Assembly: GCA_021730165.1 (NCBI GenBank)
Contig: CP072535.1
Location: 248,001-312,000 of the forward strand
DNA: 64,000 nt
Direction of reading: 5' to 3'
Source: Candidatus Vesicomyidisocius sp. Pext_18_S21
GTDB taxonomy: Bacteria; Pseudomonadota; Gammaproteobacteria; PS1; Pseudothioglobaceae
Positions 7,873-55,265 of the stretch are shown here, piece after piece. Within the stretch, counting starts at the first letter, position 1. Every line of letters begins with the position of its first letter. Made by a program: the position numbers and the translations under genes. The notes below the pieces were generated by a model. That model made no database searches and was not told the origin of the DNA. It saw nothing but the letters and a program-made list of their open reading frames with translations.

Positions 7873-8439
7873 ATGAGTTTTTCTTCATTACCTAATTTGC
7901 TTTCAATTTTACGCATTATTTTAACAGTACCAGTTGTTATGACTTTGTTAGATCGTCAATATTTTTTAGCAATGGTACTGTTTTTTATTGCAGGTATTAC
8001 TGATGCTCTAGATGGATGGATCGCTAAACGTTATTTCTTTCAAACTAGATTAGGTTCTATTTTAGATCCGATAGCAGATAAGTTATTATTAGTTAGTAGT
8101 TTTATGGCTTTATATGTGATTAGATTAATACCATTATGGTTATTGGTGTTGGTTTTTTTACGTGATTTTATGATTATTTCAGGTACAGTTGGGTGTTTTA
8201 TTGGCTCAGGAGCCTCTAAAAATGATTTATTATCACCTTCAAAACTTTCAAAAATTAATACTGTATTACAAATTATTTTGGTTTTATTTTTGGTAATAGT
8301 ACAGATTTATCCAGTTCCGATACAATATAGTACTATTTTCTTTATTATTATAGCTACCTCAACTATGCTTAGCGGTGCAGATTATGCATGGATTTGGATT
8401 GAACAAATTATTTTGCAAGAGAAGAAAAATACTCAATGA
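7873..8439 (+). CDS. pgsA: CDP-diacylglycerol--glycerol-3-phosphate 3-phosphatidyltransferase
   Basis: This is a CDP-alcohol phosphatidyltransferase making phosphatidylglycerophosphate at the inner membrane. The 188 residues (E. coli 182) contain the active-site signature as DALDGWIAK, then GSILDPIADK near residues 57-66; the usual A-R after the DG pair is A-K, a conservative change. About four to five hydrophobic helices are visible. The N-terminus SSLPNLLSILRIILTVPVV matches PgsA. Its stop overlaps the start of the hda remnant (ATGA at 8436-8439), showing that the two were once translationally coupled. Confidence 0.9.
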   Translation: MSFSSLPNLLSILRIILTVPVVMTLLDRQYFLAMVLFFIAGITDALDGWIAKRYFFQTRLGSILDPIADKLLLVSSFMALYVIRLIPLWLLVLVFLRDFMIISGTVGCFIGSGASKNDLLSPSKLSKINTVLQIILVLFLVIVQIYPVPIQYSTIFFIIIATSTMLSGADYAWIWIEQIILQEKKNTQ

Positions 8440-9079
8440 ATCAACTTGGATTGTCAATTTTATTGGTAATAAAAATTAGCAAGTTTTAGATTTTGTTAAC
8501 ATATTTTTTACTCAAAAAAGATCAGCATTTGTTTTTATTTCAGGTACTAAATCTAGTGGTAAAACACATGTGTTACAAGGTTTTGCTTTTAGCACAATTG
8601 ATAAGAAATTAAATGTTGTATTTATTGACATAAAGCAAGAGTCGCTAAAAGGAATAATAAGTGATTTAGCTTCTGTTAACTGGATTTGTATTAATAATGT
8701 TGATTGTTTAAGTATCACTCAACAACAAGTGTTATTTGATTTATATAATAGAAATAAGATAACCAATGCTAAATTAATTATTGCCGTAAGCAGTTTAACT
8801 AATGAATTGAACTTGTTAAAGGGTTTGAAAATATGCTTGTCTTTAGCGGTTTCTTTTACATTGGAAGTTCTTAATGATGAACAAAAAAATTATTATTATT
8901 GAGCGTAAAATGGCGGATAAGAATATCAATATAAATAGCAAAATCTATCATTATTTGTTTAAAGTTTTTTATGTGATTTGAATGATATTCTGAATGTGAT
9001 TAGTGTTTTAGAAGAAACTTTATTGTAACAAAAGAGTAATATTTCTATTTCTTTTATTAAACAAACATTAGGTATTTAA
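8436..9079 (+). pseudogene. hda: Decayed hda (DnaA regulatory inactivator)
   Basis: Hda with the sliding clamp promotes hydrolysis of DnaA-bound ATP (RIDA), preventing over-initiation. Pieces lie in order but in different frames. MNQLGLSILL at 8436 carries the clamp-binding QLxL motif and soon hits TAG. The AAA+ core in another frame (about 8480-8902) has FVFISGTKSSGKTHVLQGF (Walker A) and the DnaA-like NNVDCL and LFDLYNRN. It is cut off after a run of seven A, and the tail continues as IERKMADKNININSKIYHYL, then shifts again to LCDLNDILNVISVLEETLL, a TAA, and SNISISFIKQTLGI. That makes at least three shifts and one nonsense codon, so no full Hda can be made. The open core (8570-8902) is probably not functional alone. 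Confidence 0.85.
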
Positions 9080-32917: not shown

Positions 32918-34702
32918 ATGCCATTTATTAACGCAGATTTTAAAGATGATCTACCTAGCCGTGTAGATATTGTTGACATAATTAATCAACGTGTACCACT
33001 CAAAAAGGCGGGTAAAGATTACAAAGCATGTTGTCCATTTCATCATGAAAAAACTCCATCATTTATTGTCTCAGCTGAGAAACAAATGTATAAATGTTTT
33101 GGTTGTGGGGATGGTAATGGCGTGATTAATTTTGTTATGAAGTTTGATAATTTGGGCCTAGTTGAGGCGATAGAGACCATTGCTAGCGAATCAGGTATTA
33201 GTGTAGTGTATGACAAGAATGTCAAACCGATAGATACAAGATTAACTCGTTATTTCGACTTAATGCAACGAGTTGGCCAGTTTTATATTCAGCAATTAAA
33301 GCAATCTCTTGCAAAAAATAAGGTGGTTAGTTATGTTAAATATAGAGGTATTAGCGGTAAAATTGCCAAGCGTTTTGAGTTGGGTTTCGCGCCACCCAAT
33401 AGTAATTTACTATTTGGATTTGAACAAGATTCTCAAGATATTGCTGATTTAAAAGTAATGGGATTGTTAGGTGATGACCAATATCGTTCAGGAAAATATT
33501 ATGATCTTTTTAAAGATCGTCTTATGTTTCCTATTCATAATAATAAAGGTAATATTATTGCTTTTGGTGGTCGGTCATGTAATAATAATTTTAAGGCAAA
33601 ATATTTAAATTCACCTGAAACGCCTATTTTTTCAAAATCAAAAGAACTTTATGGTTTGTATCATATGCGTAAATATTCACGTTCAATTGATTATATTTTA
33701 GTAGTAGAGGGTTATATGGATGTAGTCTCTCTTCATCAAGCGGGTATATCACAAGTAGTTGCTACTTTAGGTACAGCAACTACAGTAGAGCACTTAAATA
33801 TTCTACTTCGAACAACAGATACTATTATTTTTTGTTTTGATGGCGATAAGGCAGGTGAGAAAGCTGCTTGGCGAGCATTAAATATTACTTTGCCAGTGAT
33901 TAAAGCAGGTATAACTATTAAATTTTTATTTTTGCCAGATAAAGAAGATCCAGATACTCTGGTTAAGAAAGAATCAAGCCAAGAGTTTGTAAAACGTATT
34001 GAAAATGCACAATTTTTGAGTAAATTTTTATTTAGCTATATCAAGACAAGAGTAGATTTTAACACGATTGAAGGAAAAACTTTATTTTTAGAAAGGGTAT
34101 CAATATTACTTGGAAAAATAAATTATGAAACTTACCAGCATCAGTTGTTAGAAGGTTTGGCAGGTGAAGTTAATCAAAGTGTTGAACAAATTGAATCTAT
34201 ATTAGAGCGACAAGATATGTCCACTCAACCCAATACATTTGACATATCTAAAAATTATGAAGCACCACCTATGTCTGATTTTTATGATAGTGATGAAAAG
34301 TATCAAGTACCAATGTCAGTTTCCTTGATAAGTAATAACTCATTAATAGATCAAATGATTGGTTTATTGTTAAATTATCCTTCCATGGTTGATAAAACGG
34401 TAATGTTAAGGGTGAGAAAAATTAATAATGCAAATATATTGCAAAAGTTAGCTGATTTGGTTTTATTACAAGAAGACATTACTTTGGAGACTATGGTAGA
34501 ACAATTTCCCCAGAAAAAAGAACAATTGCTTAATTTATATAATAAGAAAAGAGTTTTGAAAAATTATGATTATAAGGATGAATTTTTGGATGCTTTATTG
34601 AAGATTGAGGAAAGACAAAAAGATAAAATTGCTTTATTAATTACAAATGAAGTAGAATATACAAAAAGTTTACAAGCAAGAAAAGGCAAATTTAAAAGTT
34701 AG
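32918..34702 (+). CDS. dnaG: DNA primase
   Basis: DnaG makes RNA primers for replication. The 594 residues (E. coli 581) have the N-terminal CHC2 zinc ribbon (CCPFHHEKTPSF with CFGCG near residue 38-64), the TOPRIM core VVEGYMDVVSLHQAG near 265 (catalytic Glu in VEGY), IFCFDGDKAGEKAAW near 305 (DGD) and DKEDPDTLVKKE. The C-terminal DnaB-interaction domain is more divergent, as usual. It stands alone, without the rpsU-dnaG-rpoD order. Its stop overlaps the end of a decayed minus-strand gene. Confidence 0.96.
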   Translation: MPFINADFKDDLPSRVDIVDIINQRVPLKKAGKDYKACCPFHHEKTPSFIVSAEKQMYKCFGCGDGNGVINFVMKFDNLGLVEAIETIASESGISVVYDKNVKPIDTRLTRYFDLMQRVGQFYIQQLKQSLAKNKVVSYVKYRGISGKIAKRFELGFAPPNSNLLFGFEQDSQDIADLKVMGLLGDDQYRSGKYYDLFKDRLMFPIHNNKGNIIAFGGRSCNNNFKAKYLNSPETPIFSKSKELYGLYHMRKYSRSIDYILVVEGYMDVVSLHQAGISQVVATLGTATTVEHLNILLRTTDTIIFCFDGDKAGEKAAWRALNITLPVIKAGITIKFLFLPDKEDPDTLVKKESSQEFVKRIENAQFLSKFLFSYIKTRVDFNTIEGKTLFLERVSILLGKINYETYQHQLLEGLAGEVNQSVEQIESILERQDMSTQPNTFDISKNYEAPPMSDFYDSDEKYQVPMSVSLISNNSLIDQMIGLLLNYPSMVDKTVMLRVRKINNANILQKLADLVLLQEDITLETMVEQFPQKKEQLLNLYNKKRVLKNYDYKDEFLDALLKIEERQKDKIALLITNEVEYTKSLQARKGKFKS

Positions 34703-34920
34703 TTTTTCATGTTTAGTTTGATTGAGTCGTAATTGGTTAAAATATATTCCATTTCCTCTTTAAATACTATATTTGCTAAAATTTTATCCTTTTCACCACT
34801 ATTAGTGAATATTAGGTAAGCATATTGAGGATAATTAATTATTATTGAGATAATATAAAATACTTAGCCAAACCTTCTCTGTGCTGATAATTTTGTACCT
34901 ATACTAGTATTAATATTTTT
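34699..34920 (-). pseudogene. ftsI: Probable 3' remnant of ftsI (penicillin-binding protein 3)
   Basis: A clean C-terminal peptide on the minus strand, NYPQYAYLIFTNSGEKDKIL then ANIVFKEEMEYIL, ends at TAA 34701-34699. PBP3-type transpeptidases end with NPRYALxVxxDxP...AAPVFKxIMxYxL, the same pattern. Further upstream in another frame, SIGTKLSAQRRFG could be the KTGT-motif region, then TAA. The 270 bp between here and rsmH keep only scraps such as YQLIASHKQLLTEQSK. ftsL-ftsI normally follow rsmH on the same strand, which supports the call. The match is by eye and moderate. Confidence 0.5.
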
Positions 34921-35192
34921 TAATATAGTCTATATTTTTCCCCTTATAACAATAGTTCTATTTGTTTTTATGTAGTTGTATTTTTAATATTTTTAGAGTT
35001 TTGAATTTAATCTAACTACCATTGATTGTTTTCGATTGTTCGGTTAATAATTGTTTATGCGAAGCAATTAATTGATAATTTTTTCTTTTATACGCTTTAA
35101 CTGATTAAATAGTAAATATATGATATGTATTAAGAAATGGCTGAATTATTAATATAATTATTCTTAGCATTCGTATTTTGTATAATATTAAG

Positions 35193-36116
35193 TTAGTTTT
35201 TACTTGCTACTCTTAAAATTGCACTACGAGCACGTTTATTATTGTCAATTTCTGCTTTGCTAGTAAGGTATTTGCCTAAATCTTTTAGATAAGTTTTTTC
35301 AATTTCATGTTCAATAATAGGTAAACCTTTTGGTAAAGTTTTTTGTCGTGAATTTTTTTGAATAAAACGTTTAACAATACGGTCTTCAATTGAGTGAAAA
35401 CTAATAATAGATAGTCTGCCATTCTTGCTTAAAATATTTTTGGATTGTTCCAATACACTTATAAGTTGTTTAAGTTCTTGGTTGATAAAAATACGTATAG
35501 CTTGGAAAGTACGTGTAGCAGGATGTTTGTTTTTTTGCTTTTTGACTACTTTACTAACAATATTGGCAAGTTCTAAAGTAGTTTCTAATACGTGATTTTT
35601 CTGGTATTTTTTTATTTTACTAGCAATATGGCGTGATTTTTTTTCATTGCTAAATTGATAAATAACATTGGCAATTTCTTCTTCATTAGCTGATCTTAGC
35701 CATTGAGTAGCACTTATTCCCGTAGTTTGATTCATTCGCATATCTAGTGGACCATCAACCCTAAAACTAAAACCACGTTGTGAGTTTTCTAACTGAGGGG
35801 ATGAAATACCAAGATCAATTAAAATGCCGTCAATCTTACCTATTAATCCTTGCTTAGTTATGATAGATAGCATTTTGGAAAACGCACTGTGGATAAGGGT
35901 GAGACGATTATCAGCTAAATTCTTATTAGCATATTCAATGGCATTAATGTCTTGGTCAAAGGCAATTAATCTCCCCTTTTTGCTTAATCTGTTCAATATA
36001 CCTTGGGCATGGCCGCCACGACCAAAAGTCGCATCAATATAAATACCATTTGTTTTTATATTGAGCGCACACATTGATTCACTGAACATTACAGATTGGT
36101 GATGTTCAGGTATCAT
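35193..36116 (-). CDS. rsmH: 16S rRNA (cytosine1402-N4)-methyltransferase
   Basis: RsmH (MraW) methylates C1402 in the ribosomal P site. The 307 residues (E. coli 313) contain HHQSVMFSESMCAL at the start, the SAM site YIDATFGRGGHAQGIL near 27, DGILIDLGISSPQLEN near 98 with RGFSFRVDGPLDMRM, and FHSIEDRIVKRFI near 249. It starts by ATGA overlap with the mraZ remnant on its 5' side and is followed by the ftsI remnant. It is the surviving gene of the division cluster head, presumably kept for its ribosome function. Confidence 0.96.
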   Translation of the reverse strand: MIPEHHQSVMFSESMCALNIKTNGIYIDATFGRGGHAQGILNRLSKKGRLIAFDQDINAIEYANKNLADNRLTLIHSAFSKMLSIITKQGLIGKIDGILIDLGISSPQLENSQRGFSFRVDGPLDMRMNQTTGISATQWLRSANEEEIANVIYQFSNEKKSRHIASKIKKYQKNHVLETTLELANIVSKVVKKQKNKHPATRTFQAIRIFINQELKQLISVLEQSKNILSKNGRLSIISFHSIEDRIVKRFIQKNSRQKTLPKGLPIIEHEIEKTYLKDLGKYLTSKAEIDNNKRARSAILRVASKN

Positions 36117-36540
36117 AGTGATAATTGGTTAACCTTTATTAGATTTTGGTTTATTTCGCTAAGCATATCAAAATAATTAAATTGTTTATTCCAAGTATTT
36201 TTGTACCGTACTTTAAAATCAGGTCTTTGATTACCTATGATAGTTTTCCCATTTAGATGGGAATAATATTTTCTTGTTAAAGGAGTTAGAATACGTACTA
36301 CTTTGTCTAATTTGTAACTGGTAGTATGATCAATAAGTTTTTGTTTTAATCGTTTTGTGTAACTGTTTATTAAAGACAAAGTACTGATTTTTTCTCTCAT
36401 ATCTGCCAATTCTTTAAGGGATATAGTAACCAATATTCATCATCTAGATAAACACTTAAAATTATCTTAATTGAGTAAATTTTGTCAATTTGTGGTTGGT
36501 GATGCGTTGTCATTTTTACCTTTTTTAGCATTAACTTATA
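36113..36540 (-). pseudogene. mraZ: Frameshifted mraZ
   Basis: MraZ is a SpoVT/AbrB-fold regulator at the head of the division/cell-wall operon. The C-terminal half is open (36113-36433): REKISTLSLINSYTKRLKQK then YKLDKVVRILTPLTRKYYSH and GKTIIGNQRPDFKVRYKNTW. This follows the family pattern N-x(3)-RxLxRxLxGxA-x-x-x-xLDxxGRIxxPxxLRxYA...VxxxGxxxxFEIW, with the usual Ala and Phe-Glu replaced. The N-terminal half is in the next frame: KIYSIKIILSVYLDDEYWLL then YPLKNW (family CLLLYPLxEWE), reaching a KKGK (KGR-like) near 36525. So at least one frameshift near 36410. Its end overlaps rsmH, the canonical mraZ-rsmH order. Confidence 0.75.
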
Positions 36541-37164
36541 TTTTTTACTTATTTAAACATTAGAGATGTTGCTGGTATTTTTTAGTATAAAGCGACACCC
36601 TTAATATATAAGTCAATATCATATATTTATATTATTTTTAGATACTATTTGTTATTTAAAATAATCTAAAAATCATAACTCATCATGAAAGAGCTGTTAG
36701 TATTGTACCTAGATTATATAAAATTTAATGTTTAAGTGAAATTCGTTTTTTAATAATTATGTAGTTTTGTACTAAGATTAATAGTGTTATTAAGGTTAGT
36801 AATAGAGTAATTAGCTACCATTTTGGTATAGTTAAGAAAAGTTTTTTGACTTTCAATAATATTTATTATAGGAAGTGTTATCCTTCATAAAAATATTTTT
36901 TGTTAATTTATATTAACAGTTTTAAACTATATTCTGAGTACGTCATAATTCATCATGCGAAATTTTAGATTTTGTATATTCTTTAGATGTAATCTTTAGG
37001 TATGATAAGCGGATGATTAGAAAAAGTTTATTTTATATCGTTAAGCCAATAATCTAAACTTTTAAGTCTTTTCCTGTGGGTGATATTTAATTAAATTTTA
37101 TCTTTTGACTATAAAGAGTTGAATTAAAATACAGTGTAATTGTAGTTATCTTTAGTGTTATTAA
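36541..37164. other. Intergenic region before parC
   Basis: About 620 bp with stops in all frames and no recognised remnant or RNA gene. A weak sigma-70-like element (TTGACT at 37105-37110 with A/T-rich -10 candidates ending near 37132) lies 55 bp before parC. Confidence 0.5.
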
Positions 37165-39402
37165 ATGAACCAAATCAACTTTGAACAGCAAAGTATTGCC
37201 CAGTTTAGTGAGCGTGCTTACCTTGATTATTCAATGTATGTTATTCTTGACCGTGCGCTACCTTTTATTGGTGATGGCTTAAAACCAGTACAAAGACGTA
37301 TTATTTATGCGATGAGTGAACTTGGTTTGAAATCCACAGCAAAGTTTAAAAAATCAGCCCGTACAGTGGGTGATGTCCTTGGTAAATTCCATCCGCATGG
37401 CGATAGTGCTTGTTATGAGTCAATGGTGTTGATGGCACAAAAGTTTTCTTATCGTTATCCATTTATTGACGGGCAGGGAAATTGGGGTGCACCAGATGAC
37501 CCTAAATCGTTTGCAGCAATGCGTTATACTGAATCAAAATTGTCTCGTTATGCGGATTTATTGTTGTTAGAAATTAATCAAGGTACGGTTAATTGGATGG
37601 ATAATTTTGATGGCACGCTTCAAGAACCTAAAAATTTACCTGCACAAGTACCTAACTTATTACTAAACGGTGCTTCTGGTATTGCTGTAGGTATGGCAAC
37701 TGATGTACCACCACATAATTTAATAGAAGTGGTAAGTGCTTGTATTGTTCTATTAGATAAGCCATTTATTGATTTAGATGATATCATGCAGATTATTCAA
37801 GCGCCTGATTATCCTACCAATGCTGATATTATATCCTCATCTGCAGATCTTAGACAGATTTATGATACAGGCTATGGATCGGTTAAAATGCGTGCTGTTT
37901 ATCAAAAAGAAAAAGACAGTGTTGTTATTGAGGCATTGCCTTTTCAAATATCTGGTGCTAAGGTAATTGCACAAATTGTAGTACAAATGCGTGCAAAAAA
38001 ACTGCCTTTAGTGGATGATATTAGAGATGAATCAGACCATGAAAATCCAACGCGTATTGTCATTATTCTACGTTCTAATCGAGTTGATGCTGATGCATTA
38101 ATGTTACACTTATTCGCTACAACCGAACTTGAGAAAAATTATCGTGTTAATATGAATGTGATTGGTTTAGATGGCAAGCCGCGTGTTCTACCACTAATTC
38201 CGATGCTCAAAGAATGGTTAAGCTACAGGATGCAAGTTGTGACTAATCGTTTAACTTATCGTTTTGATAAAATTATTATGCGTTTGCATATTTTAAAAGG
38301 TTTGTTAATTGCTTTTTTAAATATTAACGAAGTAATTGCCGTTATTCGTGAGTATGATAAGCCTAAACCAGTGTTAATCAATCATTTTAAGTTGAATACT
38401 ATTCAAGCAGAGGCAATTTTAGAGCTAAAATTACGCCATCTTGCAAAATTAGAAGAAGTTAGAATTCGAACTGAACAACAAGAATTAGTATTAGAAAGAA
38501 AACAATTAGAGTTATTACTTTCAAGTAATTCACGTCTTAAGAATTTGATTAAAAAAGAACTAAAGATTATTATTAAAGATTTTGGCAATGAGCGTAGATC
38601 TAACATTAAAAGTAATGTAAATATTGCTCAAGCTTTTAGTAAGGATAATTTAGCGCTTTCTGAAAATGTTACTGTTGTTCTTAGTAATAAAGGTTGGGTA
38701 CGTCGTATGAAAGGCCATGATATCGATCCAACCATTCTTAGTTATAAGGCGGGTGATAGTTATTTGACTAGTGTGAAAGGTAAAAGTAACAAGATGGTAA
38801 TTTTTATTGATTCAACAGGTAGATCATATTCATTATTTGCTCATTCATTATCTACTGCACTAGAACAAGGAGAGCCATTAACAGTAAAATTACGTCCCCC
38901 TTCAGGGGCTCAATTTGTTGATATTATAATGGGTAAAACGAGTCAAAATATCTTGTTGTCTTCTGATGTAGGGTATGGTTTTATTGCTACTATTGATGAT
39001 TTACTGTCTTCAAGACAAACCGGAAAAGTTTTTCTTTCTTTGTCTAAAGGTGCGCAAGTGATGCAGGTTATTAATGTGGATGATGTAGATAATCAGTTGG
39101 TTGCATTAGCAACAAATCGAGGACGTTTATTAGTATTCTCAATATCTGAATTGCCCATGCTATCTAAAGGTAAAGGAAACAAGTTAATTCAAATTCCTGT
39201 CAATAGTGCTAAGACTAGACAAGAATTTGTGGTTAGTATTTGTATTTTATTTGAAACTCAACAACTAAGAGTTAATGCAGGTAAGCATTATCTGACCATT
39301 AAATCTCACAGTTTAAATGATTATATAAGCAATAGAGCGCGTCGTGGAAAGCTTTTGCCTAGAGGTTATCAAAATGTTTCCTCCATTAAGGTAATTGATT
39401 AA
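37165..39402 (+). CDS. parC: DNA topoisomerase IV subunit A
   Basis: ParC with ParE decatenates daughter chromosomes. It has 745 residues (E. coli 752). It starts with the ParC-type [19 protein letters not shown] rather than the GyrA form. The DNA-cleavage domain has [15 protein letters not shown] near residue 75 and the catalytic tyrosine in [15 protein letters not shown] near 118. The C-terminal wrapping domain is short and lacks a clear GyrA box, as expected. parE is not in the window; gyrA lies 2.4 kb downstream with three biosynthetic genes between. Confidence 0.95.
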
Positions 39403-46563: not shown

Positions 46564-47645
46564 TTAATGTATTTTAATTGATGCTAAACCAATCAATACT
46601 AGTATTAAAGTAACTATCCAAAAACGTACAATAATTTTTGGTTCAGAGATATTTTGTTTCTCAAAGTGGTGGTGAAGTGGTGTCATTAGGAAAATGCGTT
46701 TTTTATATCGTTTGTAGTAGCCTACTTGAATAATTACGAATAAGGTTTCGGCTACAAACACCCCTCCCATAATAAATAGTAAAATTTCTTGTCGAATCAA
46801 AATAGCAATTACTGCTAAATTTGCACCTAAAGATAATGATCCTATATCACCCATAAATATTTCAGCAGGATAGGTATTAAACCATAAAAATCCCAAGCTT
46901 GAACCAATGAGCGCTGCACAAATAATAAATAATTCGTTGATACCTGGTATATACGGCATATTAAGGTAATTTGAGAAGTTATAATGACCACTAAAATAAG
47001 CAAAAATAGCCAATGCACCCTGATATGAGTACAACTAACATAATGGCAAGCTCGTCTAAACCATCAGTTAAATTAACCGCATTAGAACTTCCAACAATGA
47101 CAAAATATGATAATATCAAGAATACTTAACGGTAATATTATATCATTAAAAAATGGGATAAGCAATTGGGGTTGAGTAGTTTTTTGAGAAATTAATATTA
47201 TCCAAGTGCTAATTACAATAGCACTCAATGATTGAGTTAAAAATTTTATTGAAGAACTTAACCCATTTGATGATTTATGCTTTATTTTAAGATAATCATC
47301 TATAAAGCCAATTGTACCAAATATAATAGAAGTGACTATAATAACCCATAGATAGATATTAGACCAATGACTCCAAATTAAAATACTAACTATAAATGCA
47401 AATAAAATTAATATACCACCCATGGTTGGTGTACCTGCTTTGATTAAATGTGATTTAGGGACATCAGTTCTAATTACTTGGCTAATAATGCGGTATTGGT
47501 GTAATTTTTTAATAAAAATACGACCCAACATAAGACTAATAAACAACGCACTTAGCATGGCTAGTAAAGCCCTAATAGTTAAGTAGTTTAAGACGTTAAA
47601 TTTGGTATCAAACTGAGTAATAAAATTGATTAATTCTAAAAACAT
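46564..47645 (-). pseudogene. mraY: mraY with two frameshifts
   Basis: MraY makes lipid I, the first membrane step of peptidoglycan synthesis. The N-terminal part (47082-47645) is normal up to [11 protein letters not shown], including [15 protein letters not shown] with the catalytic Asp pair. It then leaves frame near 47105; the next frame reads [20 protein letters not shown], and a second shift at the CCC of 47018-47020 (one extra G on the coding strand) returns to the frame of 46564-47034, [17 protein letters not shown], through [15 protein letters not shown] and PLHHHFEKQ. All catalytic residues survive and only two single-base events block the gene, so the damage is recent or a sequence error. 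DGLDG has also become DGLDE. Confidence 0.85.
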
Positions 47646-48857: not shown

Positions 48858-49973
48858 CTATCTTCTTAAAATTTCCTTAAGTGCTGATATGCATAAAACA
48901 ATATTTTCTTTTCTTGAGGAATAACCCATTAAACCAATACGCCAAATCTTACCAGTATAAGCACCAAGACCTGCACTAATTTCAAGATTATAATCATTAA
49001 GTAGGATAGAGCGAACTTTTTCGTCATCATAACCTTTAGGTATAATCACAGAATTTAATTGTGGTAAGCGGTCTTTTTTATTCACTAAAAAATTAATATC
49101 CATTGCTTCTAAACCATTTTTTAAAAGTTCATGATTTTTTTTATGGCGCGCCCAAGAATTCTCAACGCCTTCTTCTAATATCATTACCAATGATTCGTGT
49201 AAACCGTATAACATATTAACAGGTGCAGTATGATGATAAGTACGTTTACTGCCTCCGTTCCAATAGTTCATGATTAAATTAAGGTCTAGAAACCAACTGT
49301 TAACAGATGTTTTTCGTTTGTTTAGTTTTTGAATGGCACGTTTATTAAAGCTAATAAGTGAAATACCTGGCATGGCGGATAAACATTTTTGCGTTCCTGA
49401 ATAAATTGCATCAATCTCCCATTCGTCAACATACAACTCAGTGCCACCTAAAGAAGTAACTGCATCTACAATAGTGATACAGTCATATTGGTGTGCAAGT
49501 TTACATAAGGTTTTAGCATCAGATTGAGCACCTGTTGAAGTTTCAGCGTGTACAAAAGCAACAATATTGGCATTTGGGTTATTTTTTAAAGCATGCTCTA
49601 GTTTGTCAGTACTTACTGCTTCACCCTAATTATCTTCAACAATAATTGCCTTGCCTCCTAAGCGAGTCACATTTTCCTTCATACGCATACCAAATACGCC
49701 ATTAATACAAACAATCACCTTATCGTTAGGCTCAACTAAATTAGTGAAGCAAGCTTCCATTCCAGCTGAACCAGGTGCTGATATAGGCATGGTTAATTTA
49801 TTATCGGTTTTAAAGATAGTTTTTAAGCCTTCTTTGATTTCATCCATTATAGCTACAAAAACAGGGTCAAGATGTCCAATAGTAGGTCTTGCCATAGCGG
49901 ATAAGATTCTTGGATGTACATCAGAAGGACCTGATCCCATGAGAGTTCTTACTGGCGGATTAAATGATTGCAT
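48858..49973 (-). pseudogene. Glyoxylate aminotransferase (class V), interrupted by one amber codon
   Basis: One continuous minus-strand frame of 371 codons, MQSFNPPVRTLMGSGPSDVH to the end, matches alanine/serine--glyoxylate aminotransferases: SAPGSAGMEACFTNLVEP near 50, FVHAETSTGAQSDAKT near 140, IVDAVTSLGGTEL near 172 and the PLP lysine in YSGTQKCLSAMPGISL near 190. The only lesion is TAG at 49628-49626 in VEDN-stop-GEAV, where the family has Trp (TGG to TAG is one change). The enzyme turns glyoxylate into glycine. It is divergent from the damaged glcDEF, with which it would form a glycolate salvage route. No sign of amber recoding machinery is visible. Confidence 0.88.
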
Positions 49974-50023
49974 AATTCTTTTTTCTTTAATAAATTTAAA
50001 GAAACTATTATAATTGCTTATAT

Positions 50024-51454
50024 ATGACAATTGTTAATCAATTAACTCGAGCTTTCCCTAAAGGTGTTGTACTTACGTCTAACGAAAATACACGCCCATT
50101 TGAATGCGATGGTCTAAGTGTGTACAGGCAAAAGCCTTTGGCGGTAGTATTGCCAGATGATGTTATGCAAATTAAGCAAGTATTAAAAATTTGCAAGATT
50201 AATAACATACCAGTTGTAACACGGGGAGCAGGGACGGGTTTATCAGAGGGGCGATGCCACTTGAAAAATCTATTGTGTTAGGGTTATCTAAATTAAATAA
50301 AGTGAAATTAATTGATGTTGAAAATCAATTGGCTGTGGTTGAGCCCAGGTGTAAGGAATATTGCTATTAGTGAAGCAGTGGCACAATATGGGTTGTATTA
50401 TGCCCCAGATCCATCTAGCCAAATTGCTTGTACAATTGGTGGTAATGTGTCTGAAAATTCTGGCGGAGTGCATTGTTTAAAATATGGATTAACAGTGCAT
50501 AATGTTGAAGCAATTAGAATGTTAACTATCGATGGTGATGAATTAATATTATCTTGTCAAGATGATGGGTTAGGACTTTTGGCACTAATGAATGGTTCTG
50601 AAGGTTTGTTAGGTGTTATTACTGAAGTTACAGTTAAGCTCACACCAAATCCTGCATTTGTTAAGATGGTAATGGCAGGGTTTGATTCTGTTCGAGATTG
50701 TGCTAATGCAGTGACTAATATTATTAAAGCAGGTATTATTCCTGCTGGGTTAGAAATGATGGACAGTTTTGCTATTAAGGCAGCTGAAGGATTTGCTCAA
50801 GTTGGTTATCCACTAGATGCTAAGGCGTTATTGCTTTGTGAACTTGATGGTATACAGACGCAAGTTCAATTAGAACTTGATAATGTATTAAAAATTTTAT
50901 CAGGTGCATCGACTTTAAAAGTATCTGAAAGTGAAGAAGAACGACTTAATTTTTGGAAAGGACGTAAGTCTGCTTTTTCTGCAGTAGGCACACTATCTCC
51001 TGATTATTATTGTATGGATGGCACTATTCCGCGTCGTCATTTGGCAGATATGTTGGAAAAAATTCACAAGTTAAGCAAGAAATATCAACTTAGAGTTGCT
51101 AATGTTTTTCACGCTGGTGATGGTAATTTACATCCACTTATTTTATATGACTCTAACGTGACAGGAGAGTTAGAAAGGACTGAATAATTTGGCACTGAAA
51201 TATTAAAACTTAGTGTGGATATGGGAGGTACAATTACGGGTGAGCATGGTGTCGGTGTAGAAAAATTAAATGCTATGTGTCATCAATTTAACACGCAAGA
51301 ATTAGAAATTTTTCACAAAATTAAACACGTTTTTGATAAGAATTCATTACTTAATCCTGGTAAAGCAGTAGCAGAATTACATCGCTGTGCTGAGTTGGGT
51401 GCGATGCATGTACATCGTGGTGAATTGCCATACCCAGAACTGGAGCGTTTTTAA
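50024..51454 (+). pseudogene. glcD: Glycolate oxidase subunit GlcD with two frameshifts and one nonsense codon
   Basis: GlcD is the FAD-binding catalytic subunit that oxidises glycolate to glyoxylate. The frame opens MTIVNQLTRAFPKGVVLTSN, reaches VVTRGAGTGLSEG and is shifted by loss of one G near 50250; the shifted frame gives GAMPLEKSIVLGLSKLNK, until an extra C near 50345 restores PGVRNIAISEAVAQYGLYYA. The frame then runs on through APDPSSQIACTIGGNVSENS and VFHAGDGNLHPLILYDS to a TAA at 51185-51187 (in ERTE-stop-FGTEIL, likely Glu originally), then MGGTITGEHGVGVEKLN and HRCAELGAMHVHRGELPYPE. Nearly all conserved residues remain, so decay is recent. Its stop overlaps glcE by one base. Confidence 0.92.
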
Positions 51455-51987
51455 TGGATTCGAGACTTCAACAGTTACAAACTTTAGTTAAGGAGTCTAG
51501 TAGTTTACATATTAAAAGTACATTACTAGATTATTCTGGTATTGTGGAATATTACGCCGAAGATTTGGTAATTAGTGTTAAGGCAGGCACATCAATTGCA
51601 CAGATTAAAAAACAACTTAAAAGAAATAATCAAGCCTTATCTTTTTATACTGATAATAATGATATAAGTATTGGAGCTGCTTATGCTCAAGGAGCTCAAG
51701 ATTTGTCAGATTGTGTGTTAGGTGTGAAGATTATTGACGGCAATGGGACGTATTTAAATTTTGGTGGTCAGGTGATGAAAAACGTAGCAGGTTATGATGT
51801 GGCACGTTTGTTAGTTGGTTCAAAAGGAAAGTTGGCTTTAATTATGCAAATTAGCTTTAAGGTAATGCCAGTTACTTATGTTAATCAATTACCACCACCT
51901 ATTAAGCGTAAAAATAATTCAGTATTACATCAACAGATTGAGAAAAAATTAAAACAAGTTTTTGATCCTAGAGGGATTTTTAATTAA
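51454..51987 (+). pseudogene. glcE: GlcE remnant: open frame but large internal deletions
   Basis: GlcE is the second FAD-domain subunit of glycolate oxidase, about 350 residues in E. coli. This frame has only 177. It keeps SGIVEYYAEDLVISVKAGTS, DCVLGVKIIDGNGTYLNFGG then QVMKNVAGYDVARLLVGSKG and LIMQISFKVMP, and then jumps to the C-terminal LHQQIEKKLKQVFDPRGIFN. Missing are the glycine-rich FAD-binding loop near the N-terminus, part of the segment before DCVLG, and about 150 residues of the substrate-side domain. All deletions are in frame. A stable small protein might be made, but it cannot be a normal GlcE. Confidence 0.88.
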
Positions 51988-53112
51988 TGCAAACGATAAA
52001 AATTAGCAATATGGAAGCTAATAATATTATTAGAAAGTGTGTACATTGTGGATTTTGCTTGGCTACTTGCCCGACTTATCAATTATTAGGTAATGAATTG
52101 GACTCGCCTCGTGGACGTATTTATTTGATTAAATCGGTCTTAGAAAATCATCATTTTTCTAAGCAAAGCATTGTCCATTTAGATCGTTGTTTAACGTGTA
52201 AGTCATGTGAAACTACTTGTCCATCAGGCGTGGAATACGTTCAATTAGTGAATATTGGACGTAAGCTTGTAGAACAAAAACGTCCATTTTGGCAGAAAGT
52301 ATATAGATATTTTGTCCGCCAATTTTTAACTACTCCTATTTTATTTAATCCAATTGGATTAATTTTTAGGCATTCTCAAATCAAAGGAAAATCTATTAAA
52401 CCAATTATAAAAATTGGTACGGTTTTGTTATTAGGAGGTTGTGTGCAACCTATTCTTGCGCCTAATATTAACCATAGTATATAAAAATATTCTAGCAAAA
52501 TTAGGCTATGAAACTATAGAAACTCCACAAAAACAATGTTGCGGGGCTATTGACCAACATTTAAGCGTTAATCATGATGCTCTGGTTCAGATTAAGCAAA
52601 ATATTGATGCTTGGCTTGAAGTTGAGGCTGAGATGATTATTGTCAGTGCTAGTGGTTGCGGATTAATGGTTAAAGATTACGTATCTATGTTTGAAAGACT
52701 AGACCCTTATTATCAAAAAGTACAACATATTGTTAATAAAACAAAAGATATTGCTGAATTTTTAGCTGATAAAAATTTAAATCAGCTTAATTTAGAAAGG
52801 GTTAATATTATTTATCATAAACCTTGTACATTACAACACGGTCAACAATTAGGAGGATTAGTTAGTTCTATTTTAAATTCACTTGGTTATCAACCAACTC
52901 CTGTTGTTGATTCGCATTTATGTTGCGGTTCTGCAGGTACGTATTCAATTTTTCAGCCAAAATTATCACAACAACTAAGAGCTAATAAGTTAAAACATTT
53001 ACAAATAGCCAACCCTCAAATGATAGTTACTGCAAATATTGGTTGTTTAATTTATTTGCAAAAAGAAGCAAAAATCCCTGTCAAACATTGGGTAGAATTA
53101 TTAAACAATTAG
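51987..53112 (+). pseudogene. glcF: Glycolate oxidase iron-sulfur subunit GlcF, frameshifted
   Basis: GlcF carries two [4Fe-4S] clusters and passes electrons to quinone. The first frame (51987-52484) has CVHCGFCLATCPTYQLLG near 18 and CLTCKSCETTCPSGVEYVQL near 68, and proceeds to LLLGGCVQPILAPNI before TAA. The second frame (from about 52470 to 53112) continues NILAKLGYETIETPQKQCCG, SASGCGLMVKDYVSMF, YHKPCTLQHGQQLGG and DSHLCCGSAGTY, the CCG motifs of the heterodisulfide-reductase-like domain. A single indel near 52466-52484 separates them. glcE ends one base into its start. Confidence 0.9.
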
Positions 53113-54719: not shown

Positions 54720-55265
54720 TGGGTTTAGTAATGACTTTGTTAATTAAAGATATTCGCAAAGTTAATAAAAATTCGTTAATTTATGTTGATTACGGAGGTG
54801 GACGGGTACAGTATTTAAGGTAAGGATTTACTCATTTATTAACTATGGAAAGGTTAGGATAAAGATTGGGATATTGTATAATAAAATCTAAATATAACCA
54901 TAGATAAAGCATTTTACTGTGGCTTTGTATTGGCAAATGAATTATTAGATATTGGCGTAGATTTTTCTTTTGTACCTGTGTTGGATGTTAATTACGATAC
55001 CTACTAAACGATTGACGATAGAGCTTTTCATTTTAATTCTGATGTATTATGAAATTAGCAGGTAGGTTTAATTAATGGAATGCATAAAGCTGAGTATGAA
55101 GTGTGTAGGTATTATTTTTAGTGATGATTTGTCTATGGGCAAGGTGCGTGTGTTTTATTCAAGATATACTTGTATAGAGTAAAAATATTATTGGATAGTG
55201 ATTGTGATTTAATGCTTATATGTAATCATCCAGAATTGGTTATGCAAATTTTTTGATAAAAATTG
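54720..55265 (+). pseudogene. nagZ: Heavily decayed nagZ (beta-N-acetylhexosaminidase)
   Basis: NagZ removes GlcNAc from peptidoglycan breakdown products in wall recycling. Ordered scraps match the family: KVNKNSLIYVDYGGGRVQYL (family DHEGGRVQR), then LANELLDIGVDFSFVPVLDV, a TAA, and IDDRAFH (family GDRAFH), GLINGMHKAEYEVC (family GLxxAGMxACGKHFPG), GIIFSDDLSMG-like SDDLSM, and LDSDCDLMLICNHPELV (family AGCDMVLVCN). The segment with the catalytic KHFPGHG and following His is gone. Many stops and shifts: an old pseudogene. Confidence 0.82.

Follow-up and report, generated by a model that had tools for sequence, protein, structure and literature searches.

The vesicomyid clam symbiont Candidatus Vesicomyidisocius sp. 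Pext_18_S21 (G000) very probably descends from an ancestor that had already lost FtsI and FtsW and relied on RodA and PBP2 only, and that was followed, in the G000 lineage, by a recent and complete loss of peptidoglycan synthesis. The earlier of these losses is recorded in the 64,000-nucleotide stretch of its chromosome analysed here (the window; G000:C1:248001-312000), in which the head of the division and cell wall (dcw) cluster of this vertically transmitted symbiont has decayed. On the minus strand, mraZ (frameshifted), rsmH (intact) and relics of ftsL and ftsI succeed one another in the ancestral order and orientation (Table 1).

Table 1 Coordinates of the dcw cluster head, its neighbours and two further wall-related loci. 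Positions are those of the window.
Feature	Position	Strand	State and remarks
dnaG	32918..34702	+	Intact synteny anchor; in relatives its tail faces that of ftsI
ftsI (PBP3), C-terminal relic	34699..34857	-	Residues 573-627 plus stop
ftsI (PBP3), N-terminal relic	34851..34941	-	Residues 3-32
ftsL relic	34961..35127	-	Residues 30-85; single frameshift, single stop
rsmH	35193..36116	-	Intact, 307 aa; 16S rRNA m4C1402 methyltransferase
mraZ relic	36116..36522	-	Residues 15-150; one frameshift at about residue 55
dctP relic	36894..37090	-	TRAP-transporter substrate-binding gene; ancestrally next to mraZ on its upstream side
DNA gyrase/topoisomerase IV subunit A family gene	37165..39402	+	Intact; next gene past the relics
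mraY	46567..47645	-	Broken: 8-nt deletion and 1-nt insertion
nagZ relic (Glyco_hydro_3)	54906..55091	+	G000:C1:302906-303091

G000 is represented by a single contig of 1,023,779 bases (99.93% complete), which was surveyed by targeted searches and in selected stretches. Comparisons were made within a set of 12 genomes of the genus (G000 to G011). Three of these, G001 (Ca. Vesicomyosocius okutanii; 1,022,154 bp), G005 (1,032,764 bp) and G008 (Ca. Vesicomyosocius sp. Agig_15_S12, CP072532.1; 1,033,397 bp), are sisters of G000, the clade of the four having a support of 1.0. All four genomes are approximately 1.0 Mb in size and almost equidistant, with dS values of 0.155-0.170.

An intact mraZ-rsmH-ftsL-ftsI block is present in free-living and larger-genome relatives. 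In the loci L024, L033 and L035, mraZ (150 aa), rsmH, ftsL (88-90 aa) and ftsI (623-627 aa) all lie on one strand, with ftsI arranged tail-to-tail with dnaG. The corresponding gap between dnaG and rsmH in the window measures 490 bases and contains both the ftsL and the ftsI relics. A preliminary description of this DNA had proposed that the four-gene block was ancestral and that the rRNA methyltransferase alone had been kept; synteny with the relatives agrees with the former proposal, and rsmH is indeed the sole gene of the block that is still open in the window. Its product matches Methyltransf_5 (PF01795) over residues 5-306 with 348 bits against a cut-off of 27, and the gene is open in all 12 genomes of the genus. 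RsmH acts on 16S rRNA, and thus on the ribosome rather than the cell wall, which would explain why it has outlived its operon. Upstream of mraZ, relics of a TRAP transporter occupy positions 36767-37090. Here dctP is clear and dctQ marginal (score 44 versus 34 for shuffles), while a DctM relic sought between mraZ and the gyrase gene did not score above shuffled sequence. The transporter is intact beside mraZ in relatives, for example at L033.

Relics were identified by frameshift-aware alignment (using our own script) of proteins from intact relatives to the DNA of the window, with 40 dinucleotide shuffles as the control. Such a test was needed because the C-terminal half of MraZ reached only 15.1 bits in a plain Pfam scan (PF02381; cut-off 23). 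A plain Pfam search of G000 accordingly returned no MraZ at E ≤ 0.001, a misleading result given that the gene is frameshifted. The frameshift-aware search, which the preliminary description had recommended, recovered MraZ and FtsI relics with scores well above those of the shuffles. For MraZ, 71 of 136 aligned residues (52%) were identical and the score was 337 (best shuffle 41). As had been suggested, the two halves of the protein lie in neighbouring frames, the N-terminal half in the ORF at 36397-36531 and the C-terminal half in the ORF at 36113-36433. Residues 1-14, which include the first DNA-binding motif, had no recognisable match in the window.

Pairwise omega values for mraZ among G000, G001 and G008 were 0.85, 1.05 and 0.98, compared with 0.06-0.18 among the intact copies of G006, G010 and G011. 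The gene is therefore drifting neutrally in these three small genomes. The combination of one open frame, purifying selection and both DXXXR motifs is not found in G000, and its mraZ is a pseudogene. A functional MraZ in V. okutanii, encoded by a 142-aa frame, was also considered and rejected, since that frame lacks residues 1-14, has a frameshift in its C-terminal part and evolves neutrally. Outside the four small genomes, other lesions disrupt mraZ in G002, G003, G004, G007 and G009, but the gene is kept in G010 (the sister of G002) and G011 (the sister of G009), and must therefore have been lost several times.

Downstream of rsmH, the FtsL relic retains 35 identical residues of 56 and scores 147, against a shuffle maximum of 38. 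The preliminary description had noticed a PBP3-like C-terminal peptide on the strand of rsmH. This peptide was recovered as FtsI residues 573-627 (34857-34702), with 23 identical residues out of 55 and a score of 88 (best shuffle 31), and to it we add the ftsL relic and an N-terminal FtsI relic scoring 56 against a best shuffle of 41. The FtsI pieces meet at 34851-34857; approximately 540 intervening codons, including those for the whole transpeptidase domain, have therefore been deleted. In keeping with this, the transpeptidase domain expected of FtsI/PBP3 (PF00905) had no match at the ftsI locus of G000. The junction falls at the same place in all four small genomes, following the residues KYF at about position 32-34. 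In G001, G005 and G008 the N-terminal piece runs up to residue 33-34; its C-terminal counterpart begins, where best preserved, at about residue 560. Only about 23 C-terminal residues of FtsI aligned for G001 in the frameshift-aware run, in which the ftsL relic was not recovered from that genome. The simplest reading is a single ftsI deletion in the common ancestor of the four. Separately, the FtsI gene of G009 (Ca. Ruthia sp. Plio_17_S18; locus L029, G009:C1:320003-320846) contains frameshifts near residues 33, 69 and 482, with FtsW and PBP2 intact; FtsI seems to have been lost independently there, unless assembly errors are to blame.

The relics of mraZ and ftsI are thus common to the four genomes of about 1.0 Mb, and a NagZ relic is likewise found in all four. 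FtsW is the SEDS partner of FtsI. Among the three genomes examined for it, an FtsW relic occurs in G000 and G001, and G008 shows a weak match to one; none of the four small genomes has a second SEDS gene in intact form. All 12 genomes of the genus lack FtsZ; its absence had already been reported for V. okutanii (PMC1974822, citing Kuwahara 2007) and for Ruthia magnifica. The loss of mraZ, ftsL, ftsI, ftsW and nagZ is therefore old, having preceded the divergence of the four small genomes. In this first step, an internal deletion took out the catalytic body of ftsI before the split, and the regulator mraZ, ftsL, nagZ and ftsW, the last at a different place on the chromosome, decayed into pseudogenes. 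The septal pair FtsI-FtsW was then gone, with the elongation pair RodA-PBP2, MreBCD and lipid II synthesis still intact and under selection. From this we infer an ancestor that polymerised its wall by means of RodA-PBP2 alone.

The preliminary description had paired the decay of the cluster head with that of mraY and nagZ. This holds for nagZ, whose decay belongs to the old events common to the four small genomes, whereas that of mraY is younger and private to G000. Ten peptidoglycan and rod-shape genes are broken in G000 (murD, murF, mraY, murG, murJ, rodA, mrdA, mreB, mreC and mreD), each of which is intact in G001, G005 and G008; the nine besides mraY lie in other parts of the chromosome. 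mraY, present in the other 11 genomes as an intact frame of 367 aa, lies in three pieces in G000, and murG, murJ, rodA, mrdA (encoding PBP2) and murD are also intact in the other 11. murF, mreB, mreC and mreD, compared between G000 and G001, G005, G008 and G003, are broken in G000 only. The damage is substantial, rodA having lost 404 nt and mrdA having acquired five frameshifts and two stops. No class A PBP was found in G000, the only matches to PF00905 being two pieces of PBP2. With PBP2 frameshifted, FtsI deleted, RodA truncated and FtsW a relic, the genome has no intact class B PBP or SEDS gene left. murA, murB, murC, murE, ddl and dacA (a carboxypeptidase gene) are still open, and their products could have some residual function. 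dacA (L075:1085-2212) persists as an open frame next to the truncated rodA, even though G000 should make no wall polymer.

Breakage was concentrated in this pathway, affecting 10 of 16 peptidoglycan genes and 3 of 46 other window genes (Fisher p = 1.5e-5, a descriptive value, the list of 16 wall genes having been drawn up after the first breaks were seen). Among the 47 window genes that are intact in all three sisters, the four broken in G000 are mraY, a class-V aminotransferase gene, glcD and glcF. The last three genes lie at 48861-53112 and resemble parts of a single glycolate/glyoxylate route, the aminotransferase being likely a serine/alanine-glyoxylate enzyme; their breakage suggests that G000, presumably a RubisCO autotroph, has recently lost glycolate (photorespiratory) salvage. 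In a gene for an Hda-like regulator of DnaA (8429-9076), G000 has seven stops and G005 has three, while G001 and G008 keep the frame open, and loss of replication-initiation control is seemingly under way independently in G000 and G005.

Selection on the broken genes was assessed from terminal-branch omega values. For nine of them, omega was 0.279 on the G000 branch (bootstrap 0.245-0.340) compared with 0.161, 0.158 and 0.104 on the three sister branches, whilst 33 intact window genes used as a control gave 0.143-0.151 on all four branches. The dN of MreB was 0.031 in G000 and 0.0004-0.0017 in the sisters. Thus, selection on the nine broken genes is relaxed on the G000 branch. The open wall genes murB, murC, murE, ddl and dacA (murA excluded) gave a likewise raised omega of 0.262 in G000, but with a bootstrap range (0.162-0.449) that overlaps the sisters. 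If selection stopped entirely and at a single point in time, a rough estimate from omega would place the relaxation within the last 16% or so of the branch (pooled set) or about 34% (mreB).

Lesions known from one genome assembly might be sequencing or assembly errors in peptidoglycan genes that are really intact, and several are single-base indels. When nine of the ten broken genes were aligned (murJ being left out), 20 frameshift indels were counted in G000, whereas G005 and G008 had none when compared with G001. Four of the 20 are 1-nt changes in homopolymers of at least 5 bases (5-10 bases), as errors might be; lesion sizes, however, include 404, 11, 11, 8, 5 and 4 nt. Moreover, the lesions cluster in one pathway, with 43 of the 47 comparable window genes intact, in a genome assembled as one contig at the completeness given above. 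The same genes also show raised amino-acid divergence on the G000 branch, and read error does not proceed pathway by pathway. We therefore regard error as a very improbable explanation of the set as a whole, although an individual gene might be affected.

Mosaic wall synthesis is known for mealybug symbionts, and host or horizontally acquired genes might similarly fill the missing steps in G000, a reading that the open murA, murB, murC, murE, ddl and dacA would fit as parts of a partly outsourced pathway. The clam Archivesica marissinica does carry 28 genes of bacterial origin (PMC7826175). However, the broken genes include those for integral membrane polymerases and flippases (MraY, MurJ, RodA and PBP2) that would be hard to supply from outside, and we consider such a mosaic slightly less probable still than error. 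Least credible of all is that transcriptional slippage in poly-A/T tracts, of the kind reported from AT-rich insect endosymbionts, still lets the broken genes yield protein: the genome is low in GC and a few lesions do lie in A or T runs, but 16 of the 20 are other than 1-nt changes in runs of at least 5, slippage would have to contend with the 404-nt loss and with the multiple lesions of mrdA, and omega points to relaxed selection.

We thus favour a second step in which the ten peptidoglycan and rod genes were broken recently, in the G000 lineage alone. Precursor synthesis would be blocked at MurD, lipid I and lipid II would be neither made nor flipped, and no polymerase or transpeptidase would be left; for these reasons, G000 most likely makes no peptidoglycan. 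Cell shape and division would then have to be managed without FtsZ, MreB or a wall, presumably with support from the host vacuole. As far as gene sequences can establish them, the order of loss, the lesions and the relaxation of selection are in place. On balance, we consider it likely that G000 is a Gram-negative symbiont in mid-transition from a wall built by RodA-PBP2 only to no wall, with three nearly equidistant sisters that kept the wall genes and lesions that omega places in roughly the last 15-35% of its branch, and that it divides without FtsZ, MreB and peptidoglycan.

In a published classification, V. okutanii is filed as PG-intermediate (PGi; lipid II genes and one SEDS/bPBP, no class A PBP) and is predicted to have a minimal wall (PMC8406291). 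This class matches the RodA-PBP2-only ancestor. V. okutanii and its relatives G005 and G008 resemble G000 in size class, synteny, lack of ftsZ and relics of mraZ, ftsL, ftsI, ftsW and nagZ (within limits at ftsL of G001 and ftsW of G005) but differ in the intactness of the ten genes from murD to mreBCD. G000 itself, as judged from its genes, fits the PG-negative class (PGn) of the same study (PMC8406291): no class B PBP or SEDS gene is intact, and the majority of the peptidoglycan synthesis genes are lost (10 of the 16 wall and rod genes surveyed being broken). A similar PGi/PGn split is reported among strains of Buchnera aphidicola (PMC8406291). Compared with those classes, G000 presents the step from PGi to PGn with recent lesions, three intact sisters and six pathway genes still open. 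Vesicomyid symbionts have also been said to make no cell wall (PMC7826175, following PMC2642828), and our comparison suggests that both views in the literature can be right, for different species. In Mycoplasma genitalium, a bacterium that has long been wall-less, the dcw cluster is likewise reduced and still contains rsmH (mraW), in the arrangement mraZ-mraW-MG_223-ftsZ (PMC8475190). Unlike G000, where mraZ is dead and ftsZ absent, it keeps both mraZ and ftsZ.

The loss of division genes and the reduction of wall synthesis in vesicomyid symbionts are already known, as is endosymbiont wall loss as a type of event. The staged snapshot within one clade, with an old septal loss set against a young collapse of elongation and lipid II synthesis, appears to be new; neither this distinction nor a paper joining vesicomyid symbionts with mreB was found in the literature searched, which covered few subscription-journal papers, and a prior description elsewhere is possible. 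G000 offers a dated intermediate in endosymbiont wall loss: a single elongation pair sufficed for the ancestor of the clade to build a wall, which one lineage seems only just to have abandoned. Four close symbionts, one of them probably wall-less, would therefore constitute a natural experiment on how cells are shaped, divide and interact with their host when FtsZ, MreB and peptidoglycan are missing.
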